Below, one piece after another: positions 7,051-19,498 of a stretch of DNA of 33,116 nucleotides (within the stretch, counting starts at the first letter, position 1; each line of letters begins with the position of its first letter). Made by a program: the position numbers and the translations under genes. The stretch is from Arenimonas caeni (lineage in GTDB: Bacteria > Pseudomonadota > Gammaproteobacteria > Xanthomonadales > Xanthomonadaceae): NCBI RefSeq assembly GCF_003024235.1, contig NZ_KZ679103.1, positions 1 to 33,116 on the forward strand, read 5' to 3'. Below the pieces are notes generated by a model that made no database searches, was not told where the DNA came from, and was given only the letters and a program-made list of their open reading frames with translations.

Positions 7051-7671
7051 ATGGACCTGATCATCGTCATCCTCGACCTGCTGGGCACCTTCGCCTTCGC
7101 GCTCAGCGGCGCGCTGGTGGGCGTCCGGCACCGGCTGGACCTGTTCGGCGTGCTGGTGCTGTCCTTCGTCGCCGCCTGCGGCGGCGGCCTGATGCGCGAC
7201 ACGATGATCGGCGCGACGCCGCCGGCGGCGCTGGAGGACTGGCGCTACATCGCGGTCGCGATTGCCGCGGGCCTGCTCACCTTCTGGCGCGCCGGCGCGA
7301 TCGAGCGCTGGCGCAACCCGGTGCAGTCGCTCGACGCGGTGGGATTGGGCGTGTTCGCCGTGGCCGGCGCGCTCAAGGCCCAGGCCTTCGGCCTCGGGCC
7401 AGTGGGCGCAATGTTGCTGGGCATGCTCACCGGCATTGGCGGCGGCATGGTCCGCGACGTGCTGGTGGCGCAGGTGCCCACCGTGCTCAAGGCCGAGCTC
7501 TACGCCGTCGCCGCGCTGGCCGGCGCCGGCGTCGTGGTGCTGGGCAAGGCGCTCGAGCTGCCGCTCACCGCGGTGGCCGTGGCCGGCGTGCTCACCTGCA
7601 CCGGCCTGCGCCTGTTCGCCATCCGCCGCGGCTGGCGGCTGCCGTTGGCCGAGCCGCCGGATTCGCCCTGA
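7051..7671 (+). CDS. UPF0126 (TRIC-channel-like) membrane protein
   Basis: The 206-residue product is a member of the UPF0126/YicG family (PF03458), which shares the fold of eukaryotic TRIC cation channels; some members have been linked to glycine transport. It is made of two similar three-helix units. The first contains LDLFGVLVLSFVAACGGGLMRD and the second LGPVGAMLLGMLTGIGGGMVRD, each ending in the family GGG-x-x-RD signature. A seventh helix follows. The ATG at 7051 comes 10 bases after the DUF817 gene, whose stop overlaps the AAGGA ribosome-binding sequence. The 3' end is three bases from the convergent permease gene. The ion or solute carried cannot be told from sequence. Confidence 0.85.
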   Translation: MDLIIVILDLLGTFAFALSGALVGVRHRLDLFGVLVLSFVAACGGGLMRDTMIGATPPAALEDWRYIAVAIAAGLLTFWRAGAIERWRNPVQSLDAVGLGVFAVAGALKAQAFGLGPVGAMLLGMLTGIGGGMVRDVLVAQVPTVLKAELYAVAALAGAGVVVLGKALELPLTAVAVAGVLTCTGLRLFAIRRGWRLPLAEPPDSP

Positions 7672-7674
7672 GGC

Positions 7675-9072
7675 TCAGACCCAGCCGGTGGCGTAGAACA
7701 CGCCGATGATCACGAACACCGCCATCGTCTTGATGATCGTGATGGCGAAGATGTCCTTGTAGGCCTGGCGATGGGTCAGGCCGGTGACCGCGAGCAGGGT
7801 GATCACCGCGCCGTTGTGGGGCAGGGTGTCCATGCCGCCGCTGGCCATCGAGGCCACGCGGTGCAGCACCTCCATCGGGATGCCGGCGGCGTTGGCGTTG
7901 GCGATGAAGGTGTCGGCCATGGCCGCCAGCGCGATCGACATGCCGCCCGAGGCCGAGCCGGTGATGCCGGCCAGGGCGGTGACCGTGATCGCCTCGTTCA
8001 CCAGCGGGTTCGGGATCGAGCCGAGCGCGCTGGCGACCACCAGGAAGCCGGGCAGGGCGGCGATGACCGCGCCGAAGCCATACTCCGAGGCGGTGTTCAT
8101 CGAGGCCAGCAGGGCGCCACCGATCGCCGGCTGGGTGCTCTCGGCGAAGTGCCGGCTCACCGCCTTCCAGCCCAGCACCACCACCGCCAGGATGCCGGTG
8201 AGCAGCGCCGCCTCCACCGCCCAGATGGCGGCGACCTTCGAGACTTCCTGCACCACCGGCGCGGCATTGCCGATCACCGAGGGCTCGAAGCTGTGGCTCT
8301 CGCCGTAATGGCGGGTGATCAGGCCCGTGTAGACCTTGTTGGTGACGCCCACCAGCACCAGCGGCAGCAGCGCGACCCAGGGGTTGGCCAGCTTGTCGCC
8401 GGCGAACGGGGCCGGCTCGTTCTTCAGGTCGGTGCCATAGCCTTCGCCGGCGGCGCGGGCCGCGCGCCGGCGCCACTCGAGGTAGGCCATGCCGAGCGCG
8501 AGGATGAACATGCCGCCGATGGTGCCCAGCACCGGCGCGGCCCAGGTGTCGGTGCCGAAGAAGCCGGCCGGGATGATGTTCTGGATCTGCGGCGTACCCG
8601 GCAGCGCGTCCATTGTGAAGGTGAAGGCGCCCAGGGCGATGGTGCCGGGGATGAGGCGCTTGGGAATGTCGGCCTGGCGGAAGAGCTCGGCGGCGAAGGG
8701 ATAGACCGCGAACACGACCACGAACAGCGACACGCCGCCGTAGGTCAGCACCGCGCACACCGCCACGATCGCCAGCATCGCCCGGTCCGGGCCGAACAGG
8801 CGGATGGCCGCGGCCACGATCGACTTGGAGAAACCCGAGACCTCGATCAGCTTGCCGAAGATGGCGCCCAGCAGGAATACCGGGAAGTAGAGCTTGAGGA
8901 AGCCCACCATCTTGTCCATGAACAGGCCGGTGAACATCGGCGCCACCAGGGAGGGATCGGTGAGCAGCACCGCGCCCAGGGCCGCCACGGGCGCGAACAG
9001 GATCACGCTGTAGCCGCGGTAGGCGACGAACATCAGGAAGCACAGCGCGGCGAGCACGATCAGGAAGGACAT
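7675..9072 (-). CDS. GntP-family permease, probable 3-hydroxybutyrate importer
   Basis: The 465-residue, very hydrophobic product has 12 or more membrane segments and resembles the GntP family of gluconate and organic-acid:proton symporters. Family-like features include the DKMVGFLKLYFPVFLLGAIFGKL region near residues 52-75, the TYGGVSLFVVVFAVYPFA segment, and the late GGMDTLPHNGAVITLL segment. The ATG at 9072 was chosen because the reading frame upstream is not hydrophobic and runs into the intergenic regulatory region. GntP permeases sit beside 3-hydroxybutyrate dehydrogenase genes in several proteobacteria. Together with the depolymerase, oligomer hydrolase and dehydrogenase here, this suggests import of 3-hydroxybutyrate across the inner membrane. 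Other hydroxy acids such as gluconate or citrate cannot be excluded. It is divergent from the TonB receptor and shares its regulatory region. Confidence 0.8.
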   Translation of the reverse strand: MSFLIVLAALCFLMFVAYRGYSVILFAPVAALGAVLLTDPSLVAPMFTGLFMDKMVGFLKLYFPVFLLGAIFGKLIEVSGFSKSIVAAAIRLFGPDRAMLAIVAVCAVLTYGGVSLFVVVFAVYPFAAELFRQADIPKRLIPGTIALGAFTFTMDALPGTPQIQNIIPAGFFGTDTWAAPVLGTIGGMFILALGMAYLEWRRRAARAAGEGYGTDLKNEPAPFAGDKLANPWVALLPLVLVGVTNKVYTGLITRHYGESHSFEPSVIGNAAPVVQEVSKVAAIWAVEAALLTGILAVVVLGWKAVSRHFAESTQPAIGGALLASMNTASEYGFGAVIAALPGFLVVASALGSIPNPLVNEAITVTALAGITGSASGGMSIALAAMADTFIANANAAGIPMEVLHRVASMASGGMDTLPHNGAVITLLAVTGLTHRQAYKDIFAITIIKTMAVFVIIGVFYATGWV

Positions 9073-9136
9073 GCCTTCGGTTTCCCGGGGGTTTGCCAGG
9101 GTCCGAGTGTCGGGCGCGGCCGTGCCGCGGGCCACT

Positions 9137-9150
9137 TGTACCAAGGTACA
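9137..9150. promoter_or_regulatory. Palindromic operator, copy 1 (permease / TonB receptor)
   Basis: TGTACC-AA-GGTACA is a perfect 6+6 inverted repeat with a 2-base centre. Its core GTACCAAGGTAC is the exact reverse complement of the core of the palindrome at 17819-17834. Its centre (9143.5) lies 31.5 bases upstream of the -10 box at 9175, equal to the spacing at the second copy. No good -35 hexamer is present between them, which fits a promoter that needs an activator bound near -43. The NarL/LuxR response regulator at 18839 is the likely binder; this is inferred. Confidence 0.7.
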
Positions 9151-9174
9151 GGTGCCGTCGCGGTGGCGGCGGAC

Positions 9175-9180
9175 TAGTCT
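9175..9180 (+). promoter_or_regulatory. -10 box of the TonB receptor operon
   Basis: TAGTCT within GGACTAGTCTGCC has the TAnnnT form seen at several promoters in this window. The predicted transcript start is about 9187, leaving a leader of roughly 43 bases before the ATG at 9230. A matching -35 is lacking; the palindrome at 9137-9150 is centred about -43.5. The promoter would drive the receptor, depolymerase and kinase genes. Confidence 0.5.
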
Positions 9181-9229
9181 GCCGTGCAACCGGCCGTCCG
9201 GCCGCACGAACGTCCTGCAAGGGGAACAC

Positions 9230-11485
9230 ATGAAGCGCAACCACCTGAGCCTGGCCATCGGCCTCACCCTGTCCCTCGTCGCCCTGCAGGCGCAGGCGCA
9301 GGAGGCCGTCGACGGGCAGGAGGGCGAGGGCCAGGCCACCGCCACCACGCTCGACACCATCGAGGTCACCACCGCGCGTCGCCGCGCGGAGTCCATCGAC
9401 GAGGTGCCGGTGGCCGTGAGCGCCTTCGGCGAGTCCGCCCTGCGCGACCTGCAGGCGACCAACATCGACGGCCTCCAGGGCGCGGTGCCGAACATGAACA
9501 TCGTGCAGGGCCGCGGTTCCTCGAACTCGGTGAACGTGTTCATCCGCGGCATCGGCCAGCCCGACGCGCTGCAGACCTTCGACCCGGGCGTGGGCATGTA
9601 CGTCGACGACGTCTATTACTCGCGCATCAACGGTGCGCTGTTCTCGCTGTTCGACGTCAACCGGGTCGAAGTGCTGCGCGGCCCGCAGGGCACGCTCTAC
9701 GGCAAGAACTCCACCGGCGGCGCGGTCAAGATCAGCACCCGCGACCCGTTCGAGGACCAGGGCGGCGCGGTCGAGCTCACCGTCGGCGACTACGGCCGTC
9801 TCGAGGGCCGCGCCTACGTCTCCGGCCAGTTCGGCGACTCGGTGGCCATGAGCCTGGCCGCCGCCAAGATCAGCCGCGACGGCTACGTCACCGACCCGCC
9901 CACCGGCAAGGACTACAACGACGAGGACACCGCTGCGGCCCGCTTCAAGCTCGGCTTCCGCGCCGGCGACGACTTCACAGGCACTTTCTCGCTCGACTAC
10001 ACCCGCCAGGACAACGCGCTCACCCTGGGCCGCCCGGTGGCGCCGCTGTACTCGGTGAACCTGGCCGGCGGCATCGTCCTGCTGAGCCTGCCCGAGACCG
10101 GCGAGTACGACTTCCGCACCCGCACCTCGTTCGCGCCCGACCAGGGCCAGGACATGACCCACAAGGGCGCCGCGCTGAACCTGCAGTGGCAGCTGTCGGA
10201 CGCCTGGACCGCCAAGTCCATCACCGCCTGGCGCAAGCTCGACACCGCCTCGTTCATCGACATCGACGCCTCGGAGTTCGAGCTCGGTGACGTCTTCGTG
10301 GGCGTCGACCAGCGCCAGCTGAGCCAGGAACTGCAGCTGCAGTACGACAACGGCGACAACCTGCGCGCGATCTTCGGCCTGTACTACATGGACGAGCAGG
10401 TGCCCTCGCACCAGGAGGCCTACGCCGACGACTTCCTGGTCTGGGGCGCGACCCCGATCAGCTTCCTGCGCACCATCGACGACGACCTGTCTAACAAGTC
10501 GGTCGCCGGCTTCGTCCACGTCGACTGGGACTTCGCCCCCACCTGGACCCTCGCCGCCGGCCTGCGCTACACCAAGGACAGCAAGGACTACTACCGCACC
10601 ACCTCGACCTTCTCGGACGTGCTGGGCAACGCCGACCCGGCGCTGGCCTTCAGCATCTCCGACAGCTGGACCGCGCTCACCCCGAGCCTGAGCCTGCAGA
10701 AGGCCTTCAGCGACAACATGATGGGCTACGTCTCGGCCAACCGCGGCTACAAGGCGGGCGGCTTCAACGGCCGCGCCAACGCCGCCACCGAGATCAGCGC
10801 CTTCGAGCCCGAGTATGTCTGGACCTACGAGGCCGGCCTGAAGATGCGTTCCGGCGATGGCCGCCTGTCCGGCCGCATCGCCGCCTTCCACAGCCAGTAC
10901 AAGGACTTCCAGGCCCGCGTCTCGGAGGTCATCAACCCCAACGACCCGATCCCGAACTTCGCCTTCCCGGTGCTCAACGCCGCCGAGCTGGCCATCGACG
11001 GCATCGAGTTCGAGGGCGTGGCGCGGCTGGGCGAAGGCACGCTGCTGTCGGCCCAGCTGGGCTGGATGAACGCGCGCTACGAGGAGTTCATCGACCCGCG
11101 CGTGGCCGTCAACCCGGCCCTGGCCAACCTGCACGACAACGTGCCGTTCTCGCCCGACTTCACCGCCCGCATCGCCCTGCAGCACGGCTTCGAGCTGGCC
11201 AACGGCAGCCTGCTCACCATCGGCGGCGACGTGTCCTACCGCGACGAGACCTGGCTGAGCGTCGACAACGCCCCGGGCCTGCGCCAGGGCGCGTACACCG
11301 TGGCCGGCCTGTTCGGCGGCTGGGACTCGGCCGACGGCCGCTGGCAGGGCCGCCTCGGCGTGCGCAACCTGACCGACGAGGTCTACAAGACCGACGGCCA
11401 GGAGTTCTCGTCGATCGGTGGCATCCAGACCGTTTACTACGGCGCGCCGCGCAACTACTACGCATCGATCCGCTACAACTTCTGA
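9230..11485 (+). CDS. TonB-dependent outer-membrane receptor, candidate 3HB-oligomer importer
   Basis: The 751-residue product has a signal peptide (MKRNHLSLAIGLTLSLVALQAQAQ, cut after about residue 24), and a TonB-box-like segment TLDTIEVTT near residues 37-45. The plug domain includes VNVFIRGIGQ, the GVGMYVDDVYYSR loop and VEVLRGPQGTLYGKNSTGGAV. A 22-strand-type barrel ends in the terminal aromatic SIRYNF. The ATG at 9230 has AAGGGGA at 9219-9225. The plug type is that of receptors annotated for iron complexes, but in Xanthomonads and relatives many such receptors carry carbon sources. It stands head-to-head with the GntP permease, is followed after 8 bases by the depolymerase, and carries the same operator as the dehydrogenase. 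This suggests uptake of 3-hydroxybutyrate oligomers or a related ester. No siderophore or iron gene is nearby. Confidence 0.9.
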   Translation: MKRNHLSLAIGLTLSLVALQAQAQEAVDGQEGEGQATATTLDTIEVTTARRRAESIDEVPVAVSAFGESALRDLQATNIDGLQGAVPNMNIVQGRGSSNSVNVFIRGIGQPDALQTFDPGVGMYVDDVYYSRINGALFSLFDVNRVEVLRGPQGTLYGKNSTGGAVKISTRDPFEDQGGAVELTVGDYGRLEGRAYVSGQFGDSVAMSLAAAKISRDGYVTDPPTGKDYNDEDTAAARFKLGFRAGDDFTGTFSLDYTRQDNALTLGRPVAPLYSVNLAGGIVLLSLPETGEYDFRTRTSFAPDQGQDMTHKGAALNLQWQLSDAWTAKSITAWRKLDTASFIDIDASEFELGDVFVGVDQRQLSQELQLQYDNGDNLRAIFGLYYMDEQVPSHQEAYADDFLVWGATPISFLRTIDDDLSNKSVAGFVHVDWDFAPTWTLAAGLRYTKDSKDYYRTTSTFSDVLGNADPALAFSISDSWTALTPSLSLQKAFSDNMMGYVSANRGYKAGGFNGRANAATEISAFEPEYVWTYEAGLKMRSGDGRLSGRIAAFHSQYKDFQARVSEVINPNDPIPNFAFPVLNAAELAIDGIEFEGVARLGEGTLLSAQLGWMNARYEEFIDPRVAVNPALANLHDNVPFSPDFTARIALQHGFELANGSLLTIGGDVSYRDETWLSVDNAPGLRQGAYTVAGLFGGWDSADGRWQGRLGVRNLTDEVYKTDGQEFSSIGGIQTVYYGAPRNYYASIRYNF

Positions 11486-11493
11486 AGCACCGA

Positions 11494-12543
11494 GTGATGG
11501 CTGACTTTCCCCGGGAGTGTTCCCGCCGGGCCGCGCAAGCGGCCCGTGTTTTTATCTGCACGGCGCTGGCCGCAGTCGTAAGCGCCTGTGCCGCCGGCAC
11601 CGCGCCGCCGCTGCCGGCGCTGGACGTCGATCCGGACCGGATCGCCGTGGCCGGGCTTTCCTCCGGCGCCTACATGGCGACCCAGGTGCACCTGATCCAT
11701 TCCGACCGGCTGCGCGGCGCGGCCCTGGCGGCCGGCGGCCCCTACGGCTGCGCGGGTGGCTCGCTGGAGACGGCGCTGGGTGCCTGCATGGTCGGCACGC
11801 CGGACGTGGCGGCGCTGGCGGCGACCGCGCGCGAACGCGCCGGCACCGGCGACATCGCCCCGCTGTCGGGCCTGGCTGGCGATGCGGTCTACGTGCTGCA
11901 CGGCAAGGCCGATGCCGTCGTCTCGGAGGAGGTTTCGCGTGCCGCCGGCGGACTCTACGCGGCGCTGTCGGACGAAGTCGGGGGCGTCGCGATCGAAGCC
12001 GACTTCGAGCGCGATTTCCCGCACCTGCTGCCCACCGTCGGGCAGGGTGTCGACTGCCCGCTTGGCGGCGAGCCCTGGCTGGGCCGCTGCGGCTTCGACG
12101 CCGCCGGCGCGATGATGGCGCACCTGTTCGGCCCGGCCCCGGGGGAGGCCGGCGAGGCCGCCGGCGAGCTGCGCCGCTTCGACCAGTCCGCCTACGTGCC
12201 CGCGGACGCCGACCCGCTGCTGGCCGACGAGGGCTACCTGTACCTGCCGCCGGCCTGCGCCGACGGCGGGCGCTGCGGGCTGCTGGTGGTCTTCCACGGC
12301 TGCCAGCAGCACGCCGGTAACGTCGGCGAGGCATTCGTACGCGACGCCGGCTTCAACCGCTGGGCGGACGTGCACGGCGTGGCGGTGCTGTATCCTCAGG
12401 CGCGATCAAGCTACCTGCCGCTGAATCCGAAGGCATGCTGGGACTGGTGGGGTTACACGGGCGCCGACTACGACACCCGGCGCGGCGCGCAGCCGCGCTG
12501 GCTGGCCGCCGCCATGGGCGCGCTCGGCGCACCGATGCCATGA
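11494..12543 (+). CDS. Lipoprotein PHB depolymerase-like esterase
   Basis: The 349-residue product looks like a polyhydroxybutyrate depolymerase-family alpha/beta hydrolase. The lipobox VSAC places the lipid-bearing cysteine at residue 32, with Ala at +2, which favours the outer membrane. The lipase box GLSSG (54-58) gives Ser56. Asp140 in HGKADAVV and His177 in FPHLLP are likely triad partners. The oxyanion-hole motif VFHGCQQ (His268) comes after the triad, and CWDWWGY (315-321) is typical of the family. This order (Ser, Asp, His, then oxyanion hole) matches the circularly permuted type II catalytic domain. No linker or C-terminal substrate-binding domain is present, so soluble polymer fragments or oligomers are more likely substrates than crystalline PHB. 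GTG 11494 and ATG 11497 are adjacent possible starts; it follows the receptor by 8 bases. Confidence 0.82.
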   Translation: MMADFPRECSRRAAQAARVFICTALAAVVSACAAGTAPPLPALDVDPDRIAVAGLSSGAYMATQVHLIHSDRLRGAALAAGGPYGCAGGSLETALGACMVGTPDVAALAATARERAGTGDIAPLSGLAGDAVYVLHGKADAVVSEEVSRAAGGLYAALSDEVGGVAIEADFERDFPHLLPTVGQGVDCPLGGEPWLGRCGFDAAGAMMAHLFGPAPGEAGEAAGELRRFDQSAYVPADADPLLADEGYLYLPPACADGGRCGLLVVFHGCQQHAGNVGEAFVRDAGFNRWADVHGVAVLYPQARSSYLPLNPKACWDWWGYTGADYDTRRGAQPRWLAAAMGALGAPMP

Positions 12544-12559
12544 AGCCGCGGGCGCGGTC

Positions 12560-15500
12560 GTGCTGACCGACGCCCTGGTCGTCGGCGCCGGCCTGCTCTG
12601 GCTGGGCCTGCTGTTCGGCGCCGCGCTCTGGGCCGAGCGCCGTCCGGGCCTGCTGGCGCGGCACTGGCCGGTGGTCTATAGCCTGTCGCTGGCGGTGTAC
12701 TGCACGTCCTGGACCTTCTACGGCACGGTTACCCAGGCCCAGCGCTCGGGCTGGCCGATCCCGCCCACCTTCCTGGGCACGATCCTGCTGTACGTGCTGG
12801 GCTTCGGCTTCCTGCTCAAGCTGCTGCGGCTGGCGCGCGAAAACCGTTCGACCTCGCTGGCCGACCTGATCGCCACGCGCCTGGGCCGCAACTCCTGGCT
12901 GGCCGCCGTGGTCACCCTGGTGGCGCTGCTGGGCATCGTTCCCTACCTGGCGCTGCAGCTCAAGGCGGTGGCGATGAGCTACGGCCTGCTCACGCGGGCG
13001 TCCGACCTCGCGCCGCCGGCCTGGCAGGACAGTGCGCTGTACGTGGCGCTGGCCATGGGCCTGTTCGCGATGCTGTTCGGCACGCGCCGCGTGTCGGCCG
13101 CCGAACACAACCGCGGCCTGGTGCTGGCGATGGCGGTCGAGTCGCTGCTCAAGCTCGGCGCGATGCTCGCGCTGGGCGCGTTCGTCGTCTTCGGGCTGGA
13201 CTTGCCCGATGTGGAACTGCCGCCGCCGCCCGCCGATGGCGCCTCGGGCTTCCCGGCGCTGGTGCTGCTGGGCGCGCTGGCCATGTTCACGCTGCCGCAC
13301 CAGTTCCACGTCGGCGTGGTCGAGTGCCGCGGCGAGCGCGAACTGCGCACCGCGCGCTGGCTGTTCCCGCTGTACATGCTGGCGATCGCGCTGCCGATCC
13401 TGCCGATCGCCCGGGCCGGCGACCAGCTGCTGGCGCCGGTGGGCGTGCCCTCGGATCTTTACGTGCTGGCCCTGCCGCTGGCCCAGGGCGCCGAGGTGAT
13501 GGCGCTGCTGGCCTTCCTCGGCGGGCTCAGCGCCGCCACCGGCATGGTGATCCTGGCCACGCTGGCGCTGAGCGTGATGATCTCCAACCACTGGCTGGCG
13601 CCGCTGCTGGTGCGCGGCCGCTGGGGTGGCGGTGCCGGCGCCGACCTGCGCGGCGCCGTGCTGGCGCAGCGCCGCATCGGCATCCTGGTGGTGGTGCTGC
13701 TGGCCTGGGGCTACAGCCGGCTGGTGGCCGGCTCCGATGCGCTGGCCGACATCGGCGCGCTCTCGTTCTCGGCGCTGGCGACGCTGGCGCCGGCCGTCGC
13801 ATTCGCGGTCTGGCGGCCGCAGTTGCCGGCGCGCGCGGTGCTCGCGGGCCTGGTGGTCGCCTTCGCGCTGTGGTGCTGGGTGCTGCTGGTGCCGGCCTTC
13901 GCCGAGGCGTCCGGGCAGGCGCCGGGCTGGCTGGTGGACGGGCCGCTGGGCTGGGCCTGGCTTTCGCCCGAGCAGATGTTCGGCCTGGGCGACTGGAGCC
14001 GCGTGGGCCGCGCCACCGTGATCAGCCTGGTGGCCGGCGCGCTGCTGCCCTGGATGCTCGCTTCGCGCCTGGACGTGGCCACGCCCGAGACCGGCGCGCT
14101 CTCGCGCGAGGCCCTGCGCGAAGTGGCGGTGCGCTTCCTGCCGGCCGAGCGCGTGGATTCGCTGCTGGCCGGCGTGCCGGCGGGGCAGGCGGTGCCGGCC
14201 GAGGCGAGGCAGGCGGTGGAGCGCGAACTGGGCGCGGTGCTGGGCGCGGCCTCGGCGCGGCTGCTGCTCGACGCCGCGTGGCGCGCGCAGGGCACCGACC
14301 TCGACACGGTGGCCACCATCGTCGGCGAGGCGTCGCAGGCGCTGCGCTTCAACCAGCGCGTGCTCGAGGCGGCGCTGGAGAACATGAGCCAGGGCATTTC
14401 GGTGGTGGACGCCGAACTGCGCCTGGTGGCCTGGAACCGGCGCTACGCCCAGTTGTTCGACTATCCCGACGCGCTGCTGCAGGTGGGCATGCCGGTGGCC
14501 GAACTGGTGGCGCACAACGTGCGCCGCGGCCTGGCCGGCCCGGGGCCGGAGGACGTGGAGGTCGCCAAGCGCATCGAGCACATGCGCGCCGGCACGCCCT
14601 ACGTGGCCGAGCGGCGGCTGGGTGGTGCGGTGGTGGAGATCCGCGGCAACCCGATGCCCGGTGGCGGCTTCGTGGCCACCTTCACCGATGTCACGGAATT
14701 CCGCCGCAACGAGGCCGAGCTCAAGTCGGTGGCCGAGACGCTCGAGCAGCGCGTGGCCGAGCGCACCGCCGAACTGGCCGGCGCCAAGGCCGAGGCCGAG
14801 CGCGCCAACCGCGCCAAGTCGCGCTTCCTCGCGGCCGTGAGCCACGACCTTGCGCAGCCGCTCAATGCCGCGCACCTGTTCGTGCACGCGCTGGCGCCGA
14901 AGCTCGAAGGCACGCCGCACCAGGAAGCGCTGGACAACATCGATGGCGCGCTGGGCTCGGCCGAGGGCCTGCTCTCGGGCCTGCTGGATATTTCCCGCCT
15001 CGATGCCGGCGGCATGGCGCCCAAGCCCGCGGCGTTCCGACTCGCCGGCCTGCTGCAGCCGCTGGTGGCGGAGTTCGGCGTGCTGGCGGCGCAGAAGGGC
15101 CTCGAGCTGCAGCTGGTGCCCAGCGGCGCCTGGGTGCACAGCGACCCGCAGCTGCTGCGCCGCGTGCTGCAGAACTTCCTGGGCAACGCGGTGCGTTACA
15201 CCACGCGCGGGCGCATCGTCGTCGGCTGCCGCCGACGCGGCGGGCAGCTGGCGATCGAAGTCTGGGACACCGGCCCGGGCATCGCCGAGGCGGACCGGAT
15301 GGCGATCTTCGAGGAGTTCCGCCGGCTCGACAAAGGCGGGCAGGGCCTCGGCCTGGGCCTGGCCATCGCCGAGCGCGTGGCGCGGCTGCTGCGGCATCCG
15401 CTGGGCCTGCGCTCGTGGCCGGGCCGTGGCACGGTCTTCTCTATCACGGTGCCGATCGCCGCGCCCGTCGCCGAGCCGCCGGCCGAGCCCGCCGCCCCGG

Positions 15501-15883
15501 CGCCGGTGCCCACGCGCGGCCGCGTGCTGGTGGTGGACAATGACCCGGACGTGCTGCGCGGCATGCGCGCGCTGCTCGAAGGCTGGCACTGCGAAGTCCA
15601 GTCAGCGCGCGGCGCCGACGAGGCGCTGGCATGCATCGCGGCCGCGGTGCCGGACCTGGTGCTGCTCGATTTCCACCTCGACGCCGGCCTGACCGGCCTG
15701 GCGCTGCGCGAGCAGCTGCTGGCGCGCATGCCCGCGCGGCCCTGCGTGATCATCACCGCCGACCACGGCCCCGAGGTGCGCGACGCCGTCGCGGCCGCCG
15801 GCTGCGTGCTGCTGCACAAGCCGCTAAAGCCGCTGGCGCTGAAGTCCGTGATGTCGCGCCTGCTGGCCGAAAAAACACCGTAG
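12560..15883 (+). CDS. Hybrid sensor histidine kinase, SSS-STAC-PAS-HK-REC (CrbS-like)
   Basis: The 1107-residue product joins a solute:sodium symporter (SLC5/SSS) region to a kinase. Residues 1-500 hold about 13 membrane helices. A STAC-like linker (about 515-575, with ELGAVLGAASARLLL) follows, then a PAS domain (about 600-715) and a coiled coil (715-755). HisKA has SHDLAQPL with phospho-acceptor His762; the ATPase domain has N872/N876, DTGPGI (903-908) and GLGLGLAI; and a C-terminal receiver has Asp1037 and Lys1087. This is the architecture of CrbS/MxtR and CbrA-type kinases; CrbS works with a LuxR-type regulator on acetyl-CoA synthetase genes. The GTG at 12560, 16 bases after the esterase stop, is the only plausible start and has a poor ribosome-binding site. 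The membrane part may sense or carry the ligand. The stop codon TAG lies inside a REP-like GTAGGAGCGC. Confidence 0.9.
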   Translation: MLTDALVVGAGLLWLGLLFGAALWAERRPGLLARHWPVVYSLSLAVYCTSWTFYGTVTQAQRSGWPIPPTFLGTILLYVLGFGFLLKLLRLARENRSTSLADLIATRLGRNSWLAAVVTLVALLGIVPYLALQLKAVAMSYGLLTRASDLAPPAWQDSALYVALAMGLFAMLFGTRRVSAAEHNRGLVLAMAVESLLKLGAMLALGAFVVFGLDLPDVELPPPPADGASGFPALVLLGALAMFTLPHQFHVGVVECRGERELRTARWLFPLYMLAIALPILPIARAGDQLLAPVGVPSDLYVLALPLAQGAEVMALLAFLGGLSAATGMVILATLALSVMISNHWLAPLLVRGRWGGGAGADLRGAVLAQRRIGILVVVLLAWGYSRLVAGSDALADIGALSFSALATLAPAVAFAVWRPQLPARAVLAGLVVAFALWCWVLLVPAFAEASGQAPGWLVDGPLGWAWLSPEQMFGLGDWSRVGRATVISLVAGALLPWMLASRLDVATPETGALSREALREVAVRFLPAERVDSLLAGVPAGQAVPAEARQAVERELGAVLGAASARLLLDAAWRAQGTDLDTVATIVGEASQALRFNQRVLEAALENMSQGISVVDAELRLVAWNRRYAQLFDYPDALLQVGMPVAELVAHNVRRGLAGPGPEDVEVAKRIEHMRAGTPYVAERRLGGAVVEIRGNPMPGGGFVATFTDVTEFRRNEAELKSVAETLEQRVAERTAELAGAKAEAERANRAKSRFLAAVSHDLAQPLNAAHLFVHALAPKLEGTPHQEALDNIDGALGSAEGLLSGLLDISRLDAGGMAPKPAAFRLAGLLQPLVAEFGVLAAQKGLELQLVPSGAWVHSDPQLLRRVLQNFLGNAVRYTTRGRIVVGCRRRGGQLAIEVWDTGPGIAEADRMAIFEEFRRLDKGGQGLGLGLAIAERVARLLRHPLGLRSWPGRGTVFSITVPIAAPVAEPPAEPAAPAPVPTRGRVLVVDNDPDVLRGMRALLEGWHCEVQSARGADEALACIAAAVPDLVLLDFHLDAGLTGLALREQLLARMPARPCVIITADHGPEVRDAVAAAGCVLLHKPLKPLALKSVMSRLLAEKTP

Positions 15884-15894
15884 GAGCGCAGTCG

Positions 15895-17784
15895 TCAGGG
15901 CAGGTTGCCGAGGTGGGCTGGCGTGAGCGGCGGCACCGCGCCGTCGGCGAAGCCGCGCGGCGTGGTGGCGAACTCCGTGTCGGCCGGCAGCGGCGCGCCT
16001 TCGGCCACGTGCTTCCAGGCCGCGTCGAGGGCGCGGTAGCCGTAGGGCAGCATCGGCAGGTAGCGGGCGCCAAGCACCGGCAGGCCCAGGAAGGCATCGA
16101 AATGCTGCGCGTTGCGCACGCGCCAGTAGCGCAGCGTCGCGCCTTCGCTCGCGAAACCGTGCGCGTAGGCCGCGCCGCTGAAGGCCTCGGGAATCAGCCC
16201 GTCATCGGTGCCGTGCACCACGATCACCGGCAGTCCCTCGCGCGGCGCACCGGCCTGCGTGGCGGCGATGCCCGCGCGCACCACGCTGGCCGCGTCTTCC
16301 CACAGCGCGCGCAGGCACTGGTTGCCCGGCAGGGTCGGGTCGGCGCCGGCCTCGACGCCGCCGCGCAGCGCGATGCCGTTGCCCGGCGGGATGCCGCTGG
16401 CGTCGCTCCACCAGGCCGCGCGTTCGGCGGCGGTGGGCGCACGCGGCTGGCCGTCAGGGCCGGCCACGGCGAAGGAGAAGCCGCAGGGCATGGCGTCGAC
16501 GCCGGCGCGCGCATAGGCCGAGGCGTAGGTGGCGTTCACCGCGCGCCAGAGGTCGAAGTTCACGCTCAGCACGCCGGCGGCGATGGCTTCGTCGGTCCAG
16601 CCGGTGGAGAGCAGGTGCTCGCGCGCGGCTTCGGCCTGGGCCGCGGGCTCGTCGGCCTGCACCCAGCCCATCGACTTGAGCGAGGCGCAGCGCGCCGTGC
16701 CGGCCGGCGACTTGCCGCCGTTCGGCCTCGCCAGCAGCACGCCGTCGTAGGCCGCCGCGTTGAGCGCGCAGGGCATCCACAGCGCCGCCTCGGTCGAGTA
16801 GTCGTAGAGCGCGCGGCCGCTGCCGGTGCGCAGGATGTTGGGCGAGACCGCGACCACGGCGTCGATGCCCGTGTCGGGCAGTTCGGCCGCGCGCAGTACC
16901 GCGCCGCCGCCGTTGGACACGCCGACGGCGACGATGCGCGTGTTGCCTGGCGTCCACGGGCCGGCGTCGGGGTGCGCCAGCGAGAGCACCTGCAGCGCGA
17001 AGTCCGAGGCCTGGGCCACGTGGCGGCCCCAGTCGGCTTCGGGGTTGTCGCCCGAGTGCGCGTGCTTGACCGCGATCGGCGCCACGCCGTCGCCGGCGGG
17101 CGCGGCGGGCACGCTCAATTCCACCGGCTCGCCCGGCGCGGCGACGCGGCCGTCGAGGCCGATGCCGCGGCCGTCGGCGGTGTCGACGTAGCCGGTGCCG
17201 GCGCCCTTGTCGGTGTAGGCCACCGCGCAGCCGCGCGGCAGGCCCCAGGCGCCGGCGAGCGCGATGGCGCCATAGATGCCGCGCGAGCCCGAGGAGGCCG
17301 TGACCACCACGCAGCGCGCCTGCAGGTCGAAGTTGTCCGGCACCTGCACCAGCACGCGGTGCGGCTGCTTGCGGCCGGGCAGGCGCACCAGCGCCTGGTA
17401 TTCGCGGCCGGGCACCGGCGCGAGCGAGCCATAGAGCTCGCCGTAGCCACCGCCGGGCGCGAGGTCGGCAATGCCGCGCCAGTTGGCCCAGATGGCGCGC
17501 CGGCGCAGCTCTTCCGCCGTGGGCGCGTCGGCATTGGCGAAGGCGGGCGGCGCGGCGCTGCGCAGGCCGTCGGCGCCGAGGCCGGCGGTGAGCAGGTCAT
17601 TGCCGTCGCGGTACGTGCGCAGGTCGATGCCGGCCTCGATGGCCAGTTCCGGCGCGGCGCGCGATCCGCCGTCGGCGGCGCAGCCGGCGAGGGCGGCGGC
17701 GAGGGCGAGGGCCAGCGGCAGCGCGGCGTGGCGACGTTCCCGGGCGTTCCGGGGGCGGGCAGGGGCGTGGGCGGTGTCGTTCAT
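15895..17784 (-). CDS. D-(-)-3-hydroxybutyrate oligomer hydrolase (lipoprotein)
   Basis: The 629-residue product matches the 3HB-oligomer hydrolase family (3HBOH, PF10605), which cleaves short 3-hydroxybutyrate oligomers to monomer. Family segments include GLPRGCAVAYTDKGAGTGY, the lipase box GVSNG (288-292, Ser290), VHGTDDGLIPE (Asp527/528) and RNAQHFDAFLG (His561). A lipobox LAGC puts the lipid cysteine at residue 35 with Ala at +2, predicting an outer-membrane-anchored periplasmic enzyme. Characterised Ralstonia PhaZb/PhaZc-type enzymes are not all exported, so this is worth noting. The gene converges on the kinase gene with an 11-base gap and diverges from the dehydrogenase. A TAAGGT -10 box ends six bases before the ATG, so its mRNA is probably leaderless. 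Confidence 0.9.
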   Translation of the reverse strand: MNDTAHAPARPRNARERRHAALPLALALAAALAGCAADGGSRAAPELAIEAGIDLRTYRDGNDLLTAGLGADGLRSAAPPAFANADAPTAEELRRRAIWANWRGIADLAPGGGYGELYGSLAPVPGREYQALVRLPGRKQPHRVLVQVPDNFDLQARCVVVTASSGSRGIYGAIALAGAWGLPRGCAVAYTDKGAGTGYVDTADGRGIGLDGRVAAPGEPVELSVPAAPAGDGVAPIAVKHAHSGDNPEADWGRHVAQASDFALQVLSLAHPDAGPWTPGNTRIVAVGVSNGGGAVLRAAELPDTGIDAVVAVSPNILRTGSGRALYDYSTEAALWMPCALNAAAYDGVLLARPNGGKSPAGTARCASLKSMGWVQADEPAAQAEAAREHLLSTGWTDEAIAAGVLSVNFDLWRAVNATYASAYARAGVDAMPCGFSFAVAGPDGQPRAPTAAERAAWWSDASGIPPGNGIALRGGVEAGADPTLPGNQCLRALWEDAASVVRAGIAATQAGAPREGLPVIVVHGTDDGLIPEAFSGAAYAHGFASEGATLRYWRVRNAQHFDAFLGLPVLGARYLPMLPYGYRALDAAWKHVAEGAPLPADTEFATTPRGFADGAVPPLTPAHLGNLP

Positions 17785-17790
17785 CGTCCG

Positions 17791-17796
17791 ACCTTA
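17791..17796 (-). promoter_or_regulatory. -10 box of the oligomer hydrolase, probably leaderless mRNA
   Basis: On the minus strand the sequence reads GCTAAGGT, six bases, then the ATG at 17784. With TAAGGT as -10, the transcript would start at or within a base of the A of the start codon. The centre of the palindrome at 17819-17834 lies about 42.5 bases upstream of that start, the mirror image of its position relative to the dehydrogenase promoter. Confidence 0.45.
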
Positions 17797-17818
17797 GCAA
17801 TGGCGCGCGACGCGGGCA

Positions 17819-17834
17819 TCGTACCTTGGTACGA
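17819..17834. promoter_or_regulatory. Palindromic operator, copy 2 (oligomer hydrolase / 3HB dehydrogenase)
   Basis: TCGTACC-TT-GGTACGA is a perfect 7+7 inverted repeat with a 2-base centre. Its inner 12 bases are the exact reverse complement of the inner 12 bases of the palindrome at 9137-9150. The centre (17826.5) is 31.5 bases before the -10 at 17858 on the plus strand, and about -42.5 from the predicted hydrolase transcript start on the minus strand. One site could thus activate both divergent genes. Confidence 0.7.
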
Positions 17835-17857
17835 CGCGGCGGGCGGGCCGGCGCTGC

Positions 17858-17863
17858 TAGGGT
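17858..17863 (+). promoter_or_regulatory. -10 box of the 3HB dehydrogenase promoter
   Basis: TAGGGT in GCTGCTAGGGTGGCGG has the TAnnnT form. The expected start is about 17870, giving a leader of some 28 bases before the ATG at 17898. There is no recognisable -35, and the palindrome at 17819-17834 is centred at about -43.5, as at the receptor promoter. Confidence 0.5.
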
Positions 17864-17897
17864 GGCGGCCTGTCTTCCAGCACGTGGAAAGCCCGTC

Positions 17898-18707
17898 ATG
17901 AGTGATCGTTTCCTCGCCGGCCGCACGGCCCTGGTCACCGGCTCCACCTCGGGCATCGGCCTGGCCATCGCCGAGGCCCTGGGCGCGGCCGGTGCGCGGG
18001 TCGTGGTCAATGGCCTGGGCAGTGCGGAGCAAATCGAAGCGGCGCTGGCCGCCGTGCGCGCCGCCGGCGCCGAGGATGCCTGGCTCGAGGCGGCCGACCT
18101 GTCCGATCCGGCCGCCATCGAGGCGATGATGCAGCGCCTGGGCGAGCGCGGCGCCGTCGACATCGTGGTCAATTGCGCCGGCGTGCAGCACACCGCGCCG
18201 ATCGGCGAGATGCCGGCGGCGACCTGGGACAAGCTGATCGCCATCAACCTCAGCGCCGCCTTCCACACCATGCGCCTGGCGCTGCCGGGCATGGTGGCGC
18301 GCGGTTTCGGCCGGGTGGTGAACATCGCCTCGGTGCACGGCCTGGTGGCCTCGGTGAACAAGTCGCCCTACGTGGCCAGCAAGTTCGGCCTGGTCGGCCT
18401 GAGCAAGGTGGCGGCGCTCGAATGCGCCGGCGCCGGCAGCCGCGACAGCGGCGGCGTGACGGTGAACTGCGTCTGCCCGGGCTGGGTGGAGACCCCGCTG
18501 ATCGAGCCGCAGATCGCCGCCCGCGCCGCCGAGCACGGCGGCGACCGCGACGCCGGCGTGCGCGCGCTGCTGGCCGAGAAGCAGCCCAGCGGCCGCATGT
18601 CGCTGCCCTCGGACATCGCCGCGACCGTGCTGTTCCTGTGCCGCCGAGAGGCCCACAACCTCACCGGCGCCGCCGTGCCCGTCGACGGCGGCTGGACCAG
18701 CCAGTGA
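17898..18707 (+). CDS. 3-hydroxybutyrate dehydrogenase (SDR family)
   Basis: The enzyme would oxidise D-3-hydroxybutyrate to acetoacetate with NAD+ in the cytoplasm. The 269-residue product is a classical short-chain dehydrogenase. It has the cofactor motif TGSTSGIG (14-21), NCAGVQH near 92-98, catalytic Ser145, and Tyr158/Lys162 in YVASK. The VQHTAPI and VCPGWVETPLIEPQI segments, together with the end PVDGGWTSQ, resemble bacterial BdhA proteins. A short Gly/Ser-rich insert (about 178-186) precedes VTVNCVCPGW. I chose the ATG at 17898, where homology starts; an in-frame start at 17826 lies inside the operator and is rejected. The gene is divergent from the oligomer hydrolase that makes its substrate, and a REP doublet separates it from the response regulator. 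Confidence 0.88.
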   Translation: MSDRFLAGRTALVTGSTSGIGLAIAEALGAAGARVVVNGLGSAEQIEAALAAVRAAGAEDAWLEAADLSDPAAIEAMMQRLGERGAVDIVVNCAGVQHTAPIGEMPAATWDKLIAINLSAAFHTMRLALPGMVARGFGRVVNIASVHGLVASVNKSPYVASKFGLVGLSKVAALECAGAGSRDSGGVTVNCVCPGWVETPLIEPQIAARAAEHGGDRDAGVRALLAEKQPSGRMSLPSDIAATVLFLCRREAHNLTGAAVPVDGGWTSQ

Positions 18708-18723
18708 GCGCTCAGCGCTCACC

Positions 18724-18807
18724 GTAGGAGCGCCTTCAGGCGCGAATCTTTTGCTCTTGCCTTTGCCTTCGGCCAAGGAGCGCCTTCGCGCCTGAAGGCG
18801 CTCCTAC
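18724..18807. repeat. GTAG-type REP doublet (REPIN-like)
   Basis: A 22-base unit beginning GTAGGAGCGC and ending GGCGCGA (18724-18745) is repeated as a perfect inverted copy at 18786-18807, about 40 bases apart. Each unit contains its own small palindrome (GCGCCT-2-AGGCGC type). The pattern is that of GTAG REP sequences of Stenotrophomonas, Xanthomonas and Pseudomonas, which are mobilised by RAYT transposases; none is in this window. The intervening part is T- and C-rich and differs in composition from its surroundings. The inverted unit ends 19 bases before the -10 box of the response regulator gene. Confidence 0.8.
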
Positions 18808-18826
18808 AGGAGGCGCGGCACAGGGC

Positions 18827-18832
18827 TAGAAT
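18827..18832 (+). promoter_or_regulatory. -10 box of the response regulator, probably leaderless mRNA
   Basis: TAGAAT is followed by six bases and then the ATG at 18839, so the expected start coincides with the initiation codon. A -35 would fall at about 18804-18809, overlapping the end of the REP doublet, and does not match consensus well. No ribosome-binding sequence is placed for this ATG apart from the distant AGGAGG at 18808-18813. Confidence 0.5.
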
Positions 18833-18838
18833 CCCCGC

Positions 18839-19498
18839 ATGACCCGCCTGCTGATCGCCGACGACCACCCGCTCTACCGGCTCGCGCTGTCGCAGGCGGT
18901 GCGCGGCGTGCTGCCGGAGGCGACGATCGACGAGGCCGAGGACCTGCCCGGCGTGCAGGCGGCGCTGGCCGCGAATCCCGATACCGACCTCGTGCTGCTG
19001 GACCTGCACATGCCCGGCAGCCATGGCCTCGTGGGCCTGGCCTCGCTGCGCGCCGAGTTCCCCGGCGTGGCGGTGGCGATGATCTCGGCGCACGAGGACC
19101 CGGCCACCATCCGCCGTGCGCTCGCCTACGGCGCGGCGGCCTACCTGACCAAGCGGGCCGACCTGGCCGAACTGCAGGCCGGCCTGCGCGCGGTGCTGGC
19201 CTGCGAGGAATGGCTGCCACCGGCGCTGCGCGAAGCCGTCGCCAGCGCCGCCCCCGAACCCGGCGACCGCGAAACCGCGGCGCGCCTGGCCACGCTCAGC
19301 CCGCAGCAGTTCAAGGTGCTCACGCGCGTGGCCGAAGGCCGGCTCAACAAGCAGATCGCCGACGAGCTCGGCATCCAGGAGCGCACGGTGAAGGCGCACA
19401 TGAGCGCCATCTTCGAGAAGCTCGGCGTGCGCAACCGCACCCAGGCGGGCGTGCTGCTCGGCGCGCTGGCCCTGGCCGACCCCGCGCGCGAGGCCTGA
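18839..19498 (+). CDS. NarL/LuxR-family response regulator (CrbR-like)
   Basis: The 219-residue product has a receiver domain (1-120) with acidic pocket Asp8-Asp9, phospho-acceptor Asp55 in LVLLDLHMPG, and Lys105 in YLTKRAD. A LuxR-type helix-turn-helix follows (about 150-212: LSPQQFKVLTRVAEG, LNKQIADELGIQERTVKAHM). Such regulators bind inverted repeats as dimers. It is the only DNA-binding response regulator in the window and lies about 3 kb from the SSS-type hybrid kinase. That kinase class partners LuxR-type regulators (CrbS/CrbR). It is therefore the likely reader of the two GTACC-NN-GGTAC palindromes; this is inference. The ATG at 18839 is the natural start of the receiver domain. It converges with the next gene, with no bases between the stops. 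Confidence 0.9.
   Translation: MTRLLIADDHPLYRLALSQAVRGVLPEATIDEAEDLPGVQAALAANPDTDLVLLDLHMPGSHGLVGLASLRAEFPGVAVAMISAHEDPATIRRALAYGAAAYLTKRADLAELQAGLRAVLACEEWLPPALREAVASAAPEPGDRETAARLATLSPQQFKVLTRVAEGRLNKQIADELGIQERTVKAHMSAIFEKLGVRNRTQAGVLLGALALADPAREA

Follow-up and report, generated by a model that had tools for sequence, protein, structure and literature searches.

The acetate system CrbS/CrbR (MxtR/ErdR) pairs an SLC5-fused kinase with a NarL/LuxR-type regulator and, in the portions of the reports at hand (PMC5715377, PMC8402216), an imperfect palindrome centred near -44 with inner letters TACC-AA-.GT; according to the same portion of PMC5715377, this ACTU box, at -52 to -36, is required for CrbR activation. 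The pyruvate system RpuS/RpuR of Sinorhizobium likewise comprises an SLC5/STAC kinase and a regulator, and the part of its description that was accessible gives a target promoter with a -10 and without a recognisable -35 (PMC9100948). A transporter-like domain is also fused to the histidine kinase of the CbrA/CbrB histidine system, as stated in the accessible part of its record (PDB 10ED; PMC13022988). A transporter-fused kinase with a regulator, a palindrome centred near -44 with those inner letters, and predicted promoters with a -10 but no recognisable -35 recur at the locus described here. Among the openly licensed papers listed in the searches, none has a title or abstract start describing the system proposed here.

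The window, that is, the whole 33,116-nucleotide stretch of Arenimonas caeni DNA that was analysed (NZ_KZ679103.1), contains two palindromes, R1 and R2. They are likely to be the operators of one dedicated CrbR-like two-component system for the use of the bacterial bioplastic PHB, of 3HB oligomers and of 3-hydroxybutyrate, from which PHB is built. Both lie between divergent genes (a permease and a TonB receptor-PHA depolymerase-SLC5 kinase cluster at R1; a 3HB-oligomer hydrolase, 3HBOH, and a 3HB dehydrogenase at R2), so each site can serve two transcripts. The features are as follows.

7675 to 9072, minus strand: permease, CitMHS/GntP-type by way of a homologue 39% identical
9106 to 9111, minus strand: GACACT, candidate -10 of the divergent permease, 32.5 bp from the R1 centre
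9137 to 9150, no strand: R1 palindrome TGTACCAAGGTACA, predicted operator, centre 9143.5
9175 to 9180, plus strand: TAGTCT, predicted -10 of the receptor operon, 31.5 bp from the R1 centre
9230 to 11485, plus strand: TonB-dependent receptor (PF00593, PF07715)
11494 to 12543, plus strand: short-chain-length PHA depolymerase, catalytic type 2 (NF050059, above cut-off)
12560 to 15883, plus strand: SLC5-fused hybrid histidine kinase with PAS, HisKA, HATPase and receiver (domains and PDB 10ED)
15895 to 17784, minus strand: 3HBOH (PF10605), predicted leaderless mRNA
17791 to 17796, minus strand: TAAGGT, predicted -10 of 3HBOH, 30.5 bp from the R2 centre
17819 to 17834, no strand: R2 palindrome TCGTACCTTGGTACGA, predicted operator, centre 17826.5
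17858 to 17863, plus strand: TAGGGT (extended TGCTAGGGT), predicted -10 of the dehydrogenase, 31.5 bp from the R2 centre
17898 to 18707, plus strand: 3-hydroxybutyrate dehydrogenase, SDR (NF009093 above cut-off, TIGR01963 below)
18827 to 18832, plus strand: TAGAAT, candidate own -10 of the regulator gene, 6 nt before its ATG
18839 to 19498, plus strand: CrbR/ErdR-like NarL/LuxR response regulator, proposed binder (PF00072, PF00196)

Conservation, spacing, gene linkage, co-occurrence, regulator clade and the difference from the ACTU box were computed for this system. The first-pass annotation had described reverse-complementary palindromes 8.7 kb apart, and letters and coordinates agree: the 12-bp cores, GTACCAAGGTAC at 9138-9149 (R1) and GTACCTTGGTAC at 17821-17832 (R2), are mutually reverse-complementary. 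They are the sole copies found in the 2.95-Mb genome, with no third copy in an exact search (GTACCNNGGTAC) or at one mismatch (GTACCWWGGTAC), and the reversed-pattern control gave zero matches in both. The earlier statement that the window holds no third copy is correct even with one mismatch allowed (0.01 expected from shuffles) and extends to the whole genome, where the palindrome search that had been suggested returned two copies rather than a frequent, randomly placed motif. Under Markov models trained on the window, the AA/TT form is expected 1e-4 to 3e-3 times per window and 0.01-0.23 times per genome.

The distance from palindrome centre to -10 box is 30.5-32.5 bp at most of the promoters compared, to the left and to the right of R1 and R2 alike. 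On the receptor side of R1, TANNNT stands at 31.5 or 32.5 bp in 13 of 13 Arenimonas and 13 of 14 Lysobacteraceae regions; on the permease side, GANACT, a consensus picked post hoc after the alignment had been viewed, stands at 30.5-32.5 bp in all regions (13/13 and 14/14, respectively). Around R2, TANNNT is found at 30.5 bp on the 3HBOH side in 15/15 Arenimonas and 28/30 Lysobacteraceae regions, with one more at 31.5 bp, and at 30.5 or 31.5 bp on the dehydrogenase side in all 15 Arenimonas regions. The spacing of exactly 31.5 bp before TAGnnT boxes that was first reported thus applies to the A. caeni genome but widens to 30.5-32.5 bp in relatives. Counted from the -10 boxes, the operators would lie at about -43.5, consistent with the activator-type layout near -43 proposed at the outset. 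A scan of 7600-19600 returned no sigma-70 promoter that includes a -35, in line with the earlier remark that neither promoter has a recognisable one, but shuffles give just 0.3 as well, so the missing -35 carries little weight. The original link between the receptor-depolymerase-kinase operon and the dehydrogenase stands for both but was incomplete, having overlooked the leftward permease and 3HBOH.

For the permease, searches of Pfam, NCBIfam and PDB gave no match to the protein; its class rests on the homologue. In the kinase, residues 2-452 match PDB 10ED, which is the SLC5-STAC portion of CbrA (E 3.5e-46; the match ends at residue 452), ahead of PAS_7, HisKA, HATPase_c and receiver domains; it is through this match that the SLC5 domain characteristic of SLC5/STAC two-component systems is recognised, the Pfam SSF threshold not being reached. 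The kinase is the third gene downstream of R1, with gaps of 8-16 bases, an arrangement that supports the suggested positive feedback on the sensor, which would follow from its place in an activated operon. A terminator-like hairpin at 11527-11546 was set aside, as it lies inside the start of the depolymerase frame and four such matches against 3.3 expected mean little. At R2, 43 of 44 regions have the 3HBOH ATG 6-8 nt past the -10, the basis for predicting a leaderless mRNA.

The regulator carries a receiver (PF00072) and a LuxR-type DNA-binding domain (PF00196), as CrbR and ErdR do. All 16 regulators aligned have the same recognition-helix residues, QERTVKAH, a point in favour of the preferred explanation. 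In A. caeni the regulator gene is probably transcribed from a separate promoter, judging from the TAGAAT box, so that control by R1 or R2 is not evident; of 13 other Arenimonas loci read by eye, most show a similar box about 6-7 nt ahead of the ATG. Control from R2 is not favoured here, given the REP-like inverted repeat and the TAGAAT box between dehydrogenase and regulator. In 23 Lysobacteraceae loci with the regulator as the right-hand gene, the box is mostly farther from the site (30.5 bp in 2, 36.5-37.5 in 5, 41.5-43.5 in 12 and 56.5 in 2, with none found in the remaining 2), which counts against the preferred explanation.

The R1 core is exact in 15/15 Arenimonas sequences and the R2 core in 13/15, figures that are ascertained, since most of the 15 genomes compared alongside the window were picked because the palindrome had already been seen. 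Less biased are the loci taken by 3HBOH score, the family-wide motif counts, the loci taken by gene layout and the co-occurrence within the genus. Relatives of the R2 site were found by script in 29 of 30 Lysobacteraceae loci chosen by 3HBOH score, and a separate scan of 23 named 3HBOH loci showed no site above its threshold in four (L175, L181, L182 and L219); the R1 form in the family is mostly GTCCGAAGGTAC. Identity is 100% and 99% in the palindrome columns and 77% and 70% in the rest of the gaps. A motif taken from relatives of the R2 site, built from 30 loci inside the same 297 Lysobacteraceae genomes, occurs in 164 of 212 genomes with 3HBOH and in none of 85 without it, as raw genome counts that include shared ancestry; the exact motif is absent from the other 48 3HBOH genomes. 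It has at least 150 places, 118 with a listed 3HBOH coordinate and 32 without; among the matches listed, 106 of the 118 fall upstream of 3HBOH at a distance of 78-229 bp, and another 11, at 8.5-9.8 kb, are where an R1 partner would be expected. The predicted system is widespread in Lysobacteraceae, is seen in Rhodanobacter and Dyella loci, and has a counterpart in Idiomarinaceae: all seven Idiomarinaceae/Alteromonas loci, picked by gene layout, have a related palindrome at 31.5-bp spacing (an eighth, L185, gave only GTACGAAGGGAC and was left out). Lack of conservation upstream of orthologues, named beforehand as grounds for abandoning the proposal, was not what the comparison found.

The idea of a chance pair, or of a neutral repeat, is hardly credible. 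Its one foothold is that GTACCNNGGTAC with its spacer left free should turn up 0.2-2.9 times in a genome, which makes the palindrome on its own no great rarity. The letters are nevertheless conserved in Lysobacteraceae and in another order, as are position, spacing and co-occurrence, and this reading is rejected on conservation. Since a palindrome by itself does not name its protein, an activator or repressor encoded elsewhere might bind it while the targets of the neighbouring two-component system lie in other DNA. We consider this improbable: the AA/TT palindrome occurs in 15 of 17 Arenimonas genomes with the adjacent NarL/LuxR regulator (G180 and G300 having the regulator and no exact palindrome) and in none of eight without it, the regulator is beside the site in 20/20 Lysobacteraceae loci, the seven marine loci again place the site upstream of a receptor followed by the regulator, and the box is similar to the one known for CrbR proteins, to which the regulator is related. 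This co-occurrence of site and gene supports the NarL/LuxR protein initially put forward as the candidate binder.

Somewhat less probable still is that the system is the acetate regulator CrbS/CrbR of this lineage, its ACTU box drifted and PHB genes recruited into its regulon. ErdR is indeed the nearest curated model (206 bits against a cut-off of 390, a cut-off that does not discriminate, as none of 54 Lysobacteraceae genomes passes it, acs-linked regulators included), A. caeni shows only one ErdR-like regulator at a threshold of E 1e-40 and one SLC5-type kinase, and the inner letters are common to both boxes. However, the regulator falls outside the acs-linked CrbR group, the 3HBOH-linked regulators forming their own 43-row set at 99* in a tree built by FastTree alone, with an arbitrary root and weak deep branches (64). 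The acs gene adjoins 26 of 30 CrbR-like loci of Lysobacteraceae, while in A. caeni it lies on a different contig (C5), not beside the regulator gene, and no palindrome was seen upstream of it by eye; moreover, both regulator kinds coexist in some genomes, e.g., G013. The comparison with CrbR/ErdR motifs that had been called for bears out a resemblance to the ACTU box but also differing outer letters: sites of the PHB/3HB system have A11 C12 in 71/71 cases (row L009, its regulator start mis-anchored, was left out, although its genome has the site) and none has the ACTU-type ending GTCT/GTCG, whereas acs sites have C11 and T/G12 in all 14 chosen, from 23 upstream regions, with one match per locus taken by eye where there were several and L195 dropped. 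The separation at positions 1 and 11 hinges on which matches are taken, since two unused ones upstream of acs, in L195 and L238, have GTAG as their ending. Tree, box letters and a paralogue in the same genomes all disfavour the acetate regulon proper.

For the dedicated PHB/3HB system, the following mechanism is proposed. The SLC5-fused kinase would sense 3HB or a related short-chain acid and phosphorylate the adjacent CrbR-like regulator. A dimer of this regulator, bound at GTACC-WW-GGTAC some 43.5 bp ahead of the start sites, would then bring RNA polymerase to extended -10 promoters that lack a -35. Since each operator sits midway between two opposite -10 boxes, one site could activate both directions: R1 the permease and the receptor-depolymerase-kinase genes, R2 the leaderless 3HBOH and the 3HB dehydrogenase. 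Polymerases on either side of one operator may exclude each other. We infer phosphorylation, binding and activation rather than repression from sequence, and the inducer, start sites, operon structure and mutual exclusion are proposed on the same footing.

A wider, joint reading is more tentative, and we put it at somewhat less than an even chance: a transporter-kinase sensing 3HB or its oligomers would be a further SLC5-type class beside those for acetate, histidine and pyruvate, with a code-insulated regulator and alternating operators. The code change would consist of box ends G..AC instead of the A/C..CT of the paralogue CrbR, matched by a helix start QERT (QETT in marine relatives) instead of SEAT, and each operator would drive two opposite promoters in alternation, one giving the leaderless hydrolase mRNA.

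The outcome is a concrete, testable regulon (operators, regulator, sensor and targets) for extracellular PHB/3HB use. Genomes of some Lysobacteraceae, with a paralogous CrbR only a few outer box letters apart, offer a natural case for insulation of sister regulators, and the midway operators make it possible to ask how one activator would serve two opposite promoters.

Each described relative differs in its own way. The regulator of CbrA/CbrB, CbrB, is of the sigma-54 activator type. The signal of that system is histidine, as given in the accessible part of PMC13022988. In RpuS/RpuR, going by the available portion of PMC9100948, the site is an imperfect direct repeat rather than a palindrome and the target is the pyruvate symporter MctP. 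CrbS/CrbR, the closest, is acs-linked and, in the sites compared, its box ends in A/C..CT, whereas the PHB system is linked to 3HBOH, the receptor and the PHA depolymerase, its box ends in G..AC, its regulator belongs to a separate clade, and its operators are predicted to work in two directions.

The two palindromes R1 and R2, each flanked by a divergent gene pair, are predicted operators of what is, judged from sequence, most likely a two-component activator dedicated to PHB/3-hydroxybutyrate (3HB) use. The features concerned are as follows:

7675-9072, minus strand: permease, left of R1, of CitMHS/GntP type solely via its homologue at the Aliidiomarina locus L200
9138-9149: R1 palindrome core, GTACCAAGGTAC
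9230-11485: TonB receptor, right of R1
After the TonB receptor, right side of R1: PHA depolymerase (NF050059, above cut-off)
12560-15883: hybrid kinase, right side of R1, after the depolymerase
15895-17784, minus strand: 3HB-oligomer hydrolase (3HBOH; PF10605), left of R2
17821-17832: R2 palindrome core, GTACCTTGGTAC
17898-18707: 3HB dehydrogenase, right of R2 (NF009093, above cut-off)
18839-19498: NarL/LuxR regulator, beyond the dehydrogenase

The N-terminus of the hybrid kinase matches PDB 10ED, the SLC5-STAC part of CbrA, and the other kinases in the same genome align with the hybrid kinase only from about residue 731 onward. For the regulator, the best NCBIfam model is ErdR, with a score under the cut-off; it is 94% and 81% identical to its A. 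metalli and A. oryziterrae counterparts, which puts the window in Arenimonas, and its next match within the genome has 31% identity. Compared with most of the family loci L111-L130, where kinase and regulator converge, the 15895-19498 block (3HBOH, dehydrogenase, and regulator) is inverted relative to the kinase; the family order is retained in the genus loci L093 and L101.

The first-pass annotation had reported one palindrome twice, each copy centered 31.5 bp upstream of a TAGnnT box, and both the pair and the spacing were confirmed. The motif is not frequent and randomly placed: no further exact copy was found in the 2,953,983-base assembly, nor any additional copy of the WW-spacer form with one mismatch, and the reversed-pattern control gave 0 matches. 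With one mismatch allowed, the WW form matched 0.01 times in the shuffled window. Window-trained Markov models predict 1e-4 to 3e-3 AA/TT forms in the window and 0.01-0.23 in the genome (0.2-2.9 in the genome with any spacer).

The site is also kept upstream of orthologs across Arenimonas. In genus loci mostly picked because the palindrome was already present, the R1 core is exact in 15/15 sequences and the R2 core in 13/15. Palindrome columns average 100% identity for R1 (13 rows) and 99% for R2 (15 rows), versus 77% and 70%, respectively, in other intergenic columns. The genus set comprises 25 genomes: 15 of the 17 that encode the regulator also have the AA/TT palindrome, against none of the eight that lack it, four of which are <86% complete (Fisher 4e-5, kinship ignored). 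The two regulator-bearing exceptions are G180, with R2 one letter off (L101), and G300; the regulator-less G246 has a palindrome with a CT spacer.

Across the Lysobacteraceae, CATCGTAC-type sites were found by script upstream of 3HBOH in 29 of 30 loci chosen by 3HBOH score; the thirtieth, L009, was mis-anchored, and its genome carries the family motif. The pattern CATCGTACYTWSGTMC, derived from those 30 loci, was found in 164 of 297 family genomes (reversed control, 2), all among the 212 with 3HBOH and none among the 85 without it. Among the matches listed, 118 had a comparable coordinate: 106 precede 3HBOH by 78-229 bp, another 11 are 8.5-9.8 kb from it on the same contig, matching the position expected of the R1 partner, and one is on a separate contig beside dehydrogenase and regulator genes. 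All 20 family loci compared (~20 kb each) contain both 3HBOH and the regulator. The orthologous kinase is absent only from L115 and L116 (18 of 20), and the permease occurs in 14, with the sequence often stopping short of its position; R1 in these 14 is mostly GTCCGAAGGTAC.

Beyond the family, 19 of 23 named 3HBOH loci have a site near 3HBOH at the script's threshold (none in L175, L181, L182, and L219), and the complete cluster with both sites is present in L177, L178, and L180, from Rhodanobacter and Dyella. Within ~9 kb of the regulator, a Dyella and a Rhodanobacter locus (L177:1468-3318 and L180:2039-3889) encode an acyl-CoA synthetase with 40-41% identity to acs, which could be an acetoacetyl-CoA synthetase of the same pathway. 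A marine counterpart of the cluster occurs in Idiomarinaceae and Alteromonas: seven loci selected by gene layout (L194, L199, L204, L220, and L226, Pseudidiomarina; L200, Aliidiomarina; L216, Alteromonas) have the permease divergent from the receptor, then the regulator, with the kinase nearby; L216 also has SDR and depolymerase homologs. Their permease-receptor gap contains a GTACYWWNGTAC palindrome, single on the locus strand searched, with TANNNT at 31.5 bp in 7/7 and additionally at 26.5 in L199 and L200. These loci are richer in AT, and TANNNT is 20-30 times as frequent in them as in the window.

In the GC-rich window, TANNNT occurs at 0.00048 per base and strand. Leftward from R2, a box lies at 30.5 bp in 15/15 genus and 28/30 family regions (31.5 in one more), and rightward at 30.5/31.5 in 15/15 genus regions; R1 has a rightward box at 31.5/32.5 (13/13 genus, 13/14 family) and a leftward GANACT, a consensus selected post hoc from the viewed alignment, at 30.5-32.5 (13/13 and 14/14). 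The 3HBOH ATG is 6-8 nt downstream of its -10 in 43 of 44 regions having such a box, which predicts a leaderless mRNA. Seven dehydrogenase-first family loci have the box at 30.5/31.5. A uniform spacing rule is countered by the 23 family loci with the regulator as right-hand gene, where the nearest box is mostly farther away: 30.5 in 2, 36.5-37.5 in 5, 41.5-43.5 in 12, and 56.5 in 2, with no box found in the remaining 2. In ten family loci (L010, L012, L013, L016, L020, L022, L025, L029, L030, and L031), the regulator start codon is 6-7 nt past a TANNNT box, and R2 there may have leaderless mRNAs on both sides.

These data support the earlier proposal that the adjacent NarL/LuxR regulator binds the palindromes, and extend it to the divergent genes. 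A regulator dimer at about -43.5 would substitute for the absent -35 element. With the operator midway between two -10 boxes ~62-64 bp apart, the flanking polymerases would overlap, predicting alternating firing. R1 probably also provides feedback onto the kinase. That the regulator activates its own gene is not supported in this genome, where the gene is preceded by a REP-like inverted repeat and by a TAGAAT box distinct from those at R2. The repeat (18724-18807, GTAGGAGCGCCTTCAGGCGCG and its complement), between the dehydrogenase and regulator genes, resembles Stenotrophomonas REP elements of the GTAG type.

A FastTree was built from 125 regulators (root arbitrary, deepest branches weak at 64). 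In it, all 38 3HBOH-linked regulators fall inside a single set of 43 rows (99), the marine regulators, seven in number, form their own adjoining group (95; 91), and CrbR-like rows are placed elsewhere. The recognition helix reads QERTVKAH in the 3HBOH group, QETTIKQH in the marine one, and SEATxKAH in CrbR groups. In 26 of 30 CrbR-like family loci, acs lies inside the 1.5-kb flank. This genome and G042 each encode one ErdR-like regulator at E 1e-40, many family genomes two or more; this genome thus seems to lack a CrbR linked to acs (acs at G000:C5:80795).

In published work, P. fluorescens acs has an ACTU box at -52 to -36 that is required for activation (PMC5715377); phosphorylation increased the DNA affinity of ErdR, which did not bind an acs promoter in which no box could be identified (PMC8402216). 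Sites upstream of acs are mostly [AC]TACCAA[GT]GTCT (14 loci used out of 23; one site per locus, picked by eye, outer letters left free in the scan). Of these 14 sites, five have TANNNT at 31.5 bp and three at 33.5. Comparison with the CrbR/ErdR motif, suggested in the first-pass annotation, bore out a shared interior, TACC-AA-.GT, and separated the ends: positions 1, 11, and 12 read G..AC in 71 new-system sites, whose selection favored GTAC arms, versus A/C..C[TG] in the 14 acs sites, without overlap. At L195 and L238, however, acs matches left unused have GTAG ends, which weakens the case for a complete separation of the two boxes. That the system represents a distinct 3HB-sensing SLC5-type class, its regulator insulated from CrbR by the box ends and its operators working alternately in two directions, is a tentative proposal, plausible yet somewhat doubtful as a whole and made slightly less likely by these unused matches. 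The predicted mode of working resembles that of CrbS/CrbR, but the PHB/3HB regulator is not classed as CrbR because its clade, gene linkage, and box ends differ.
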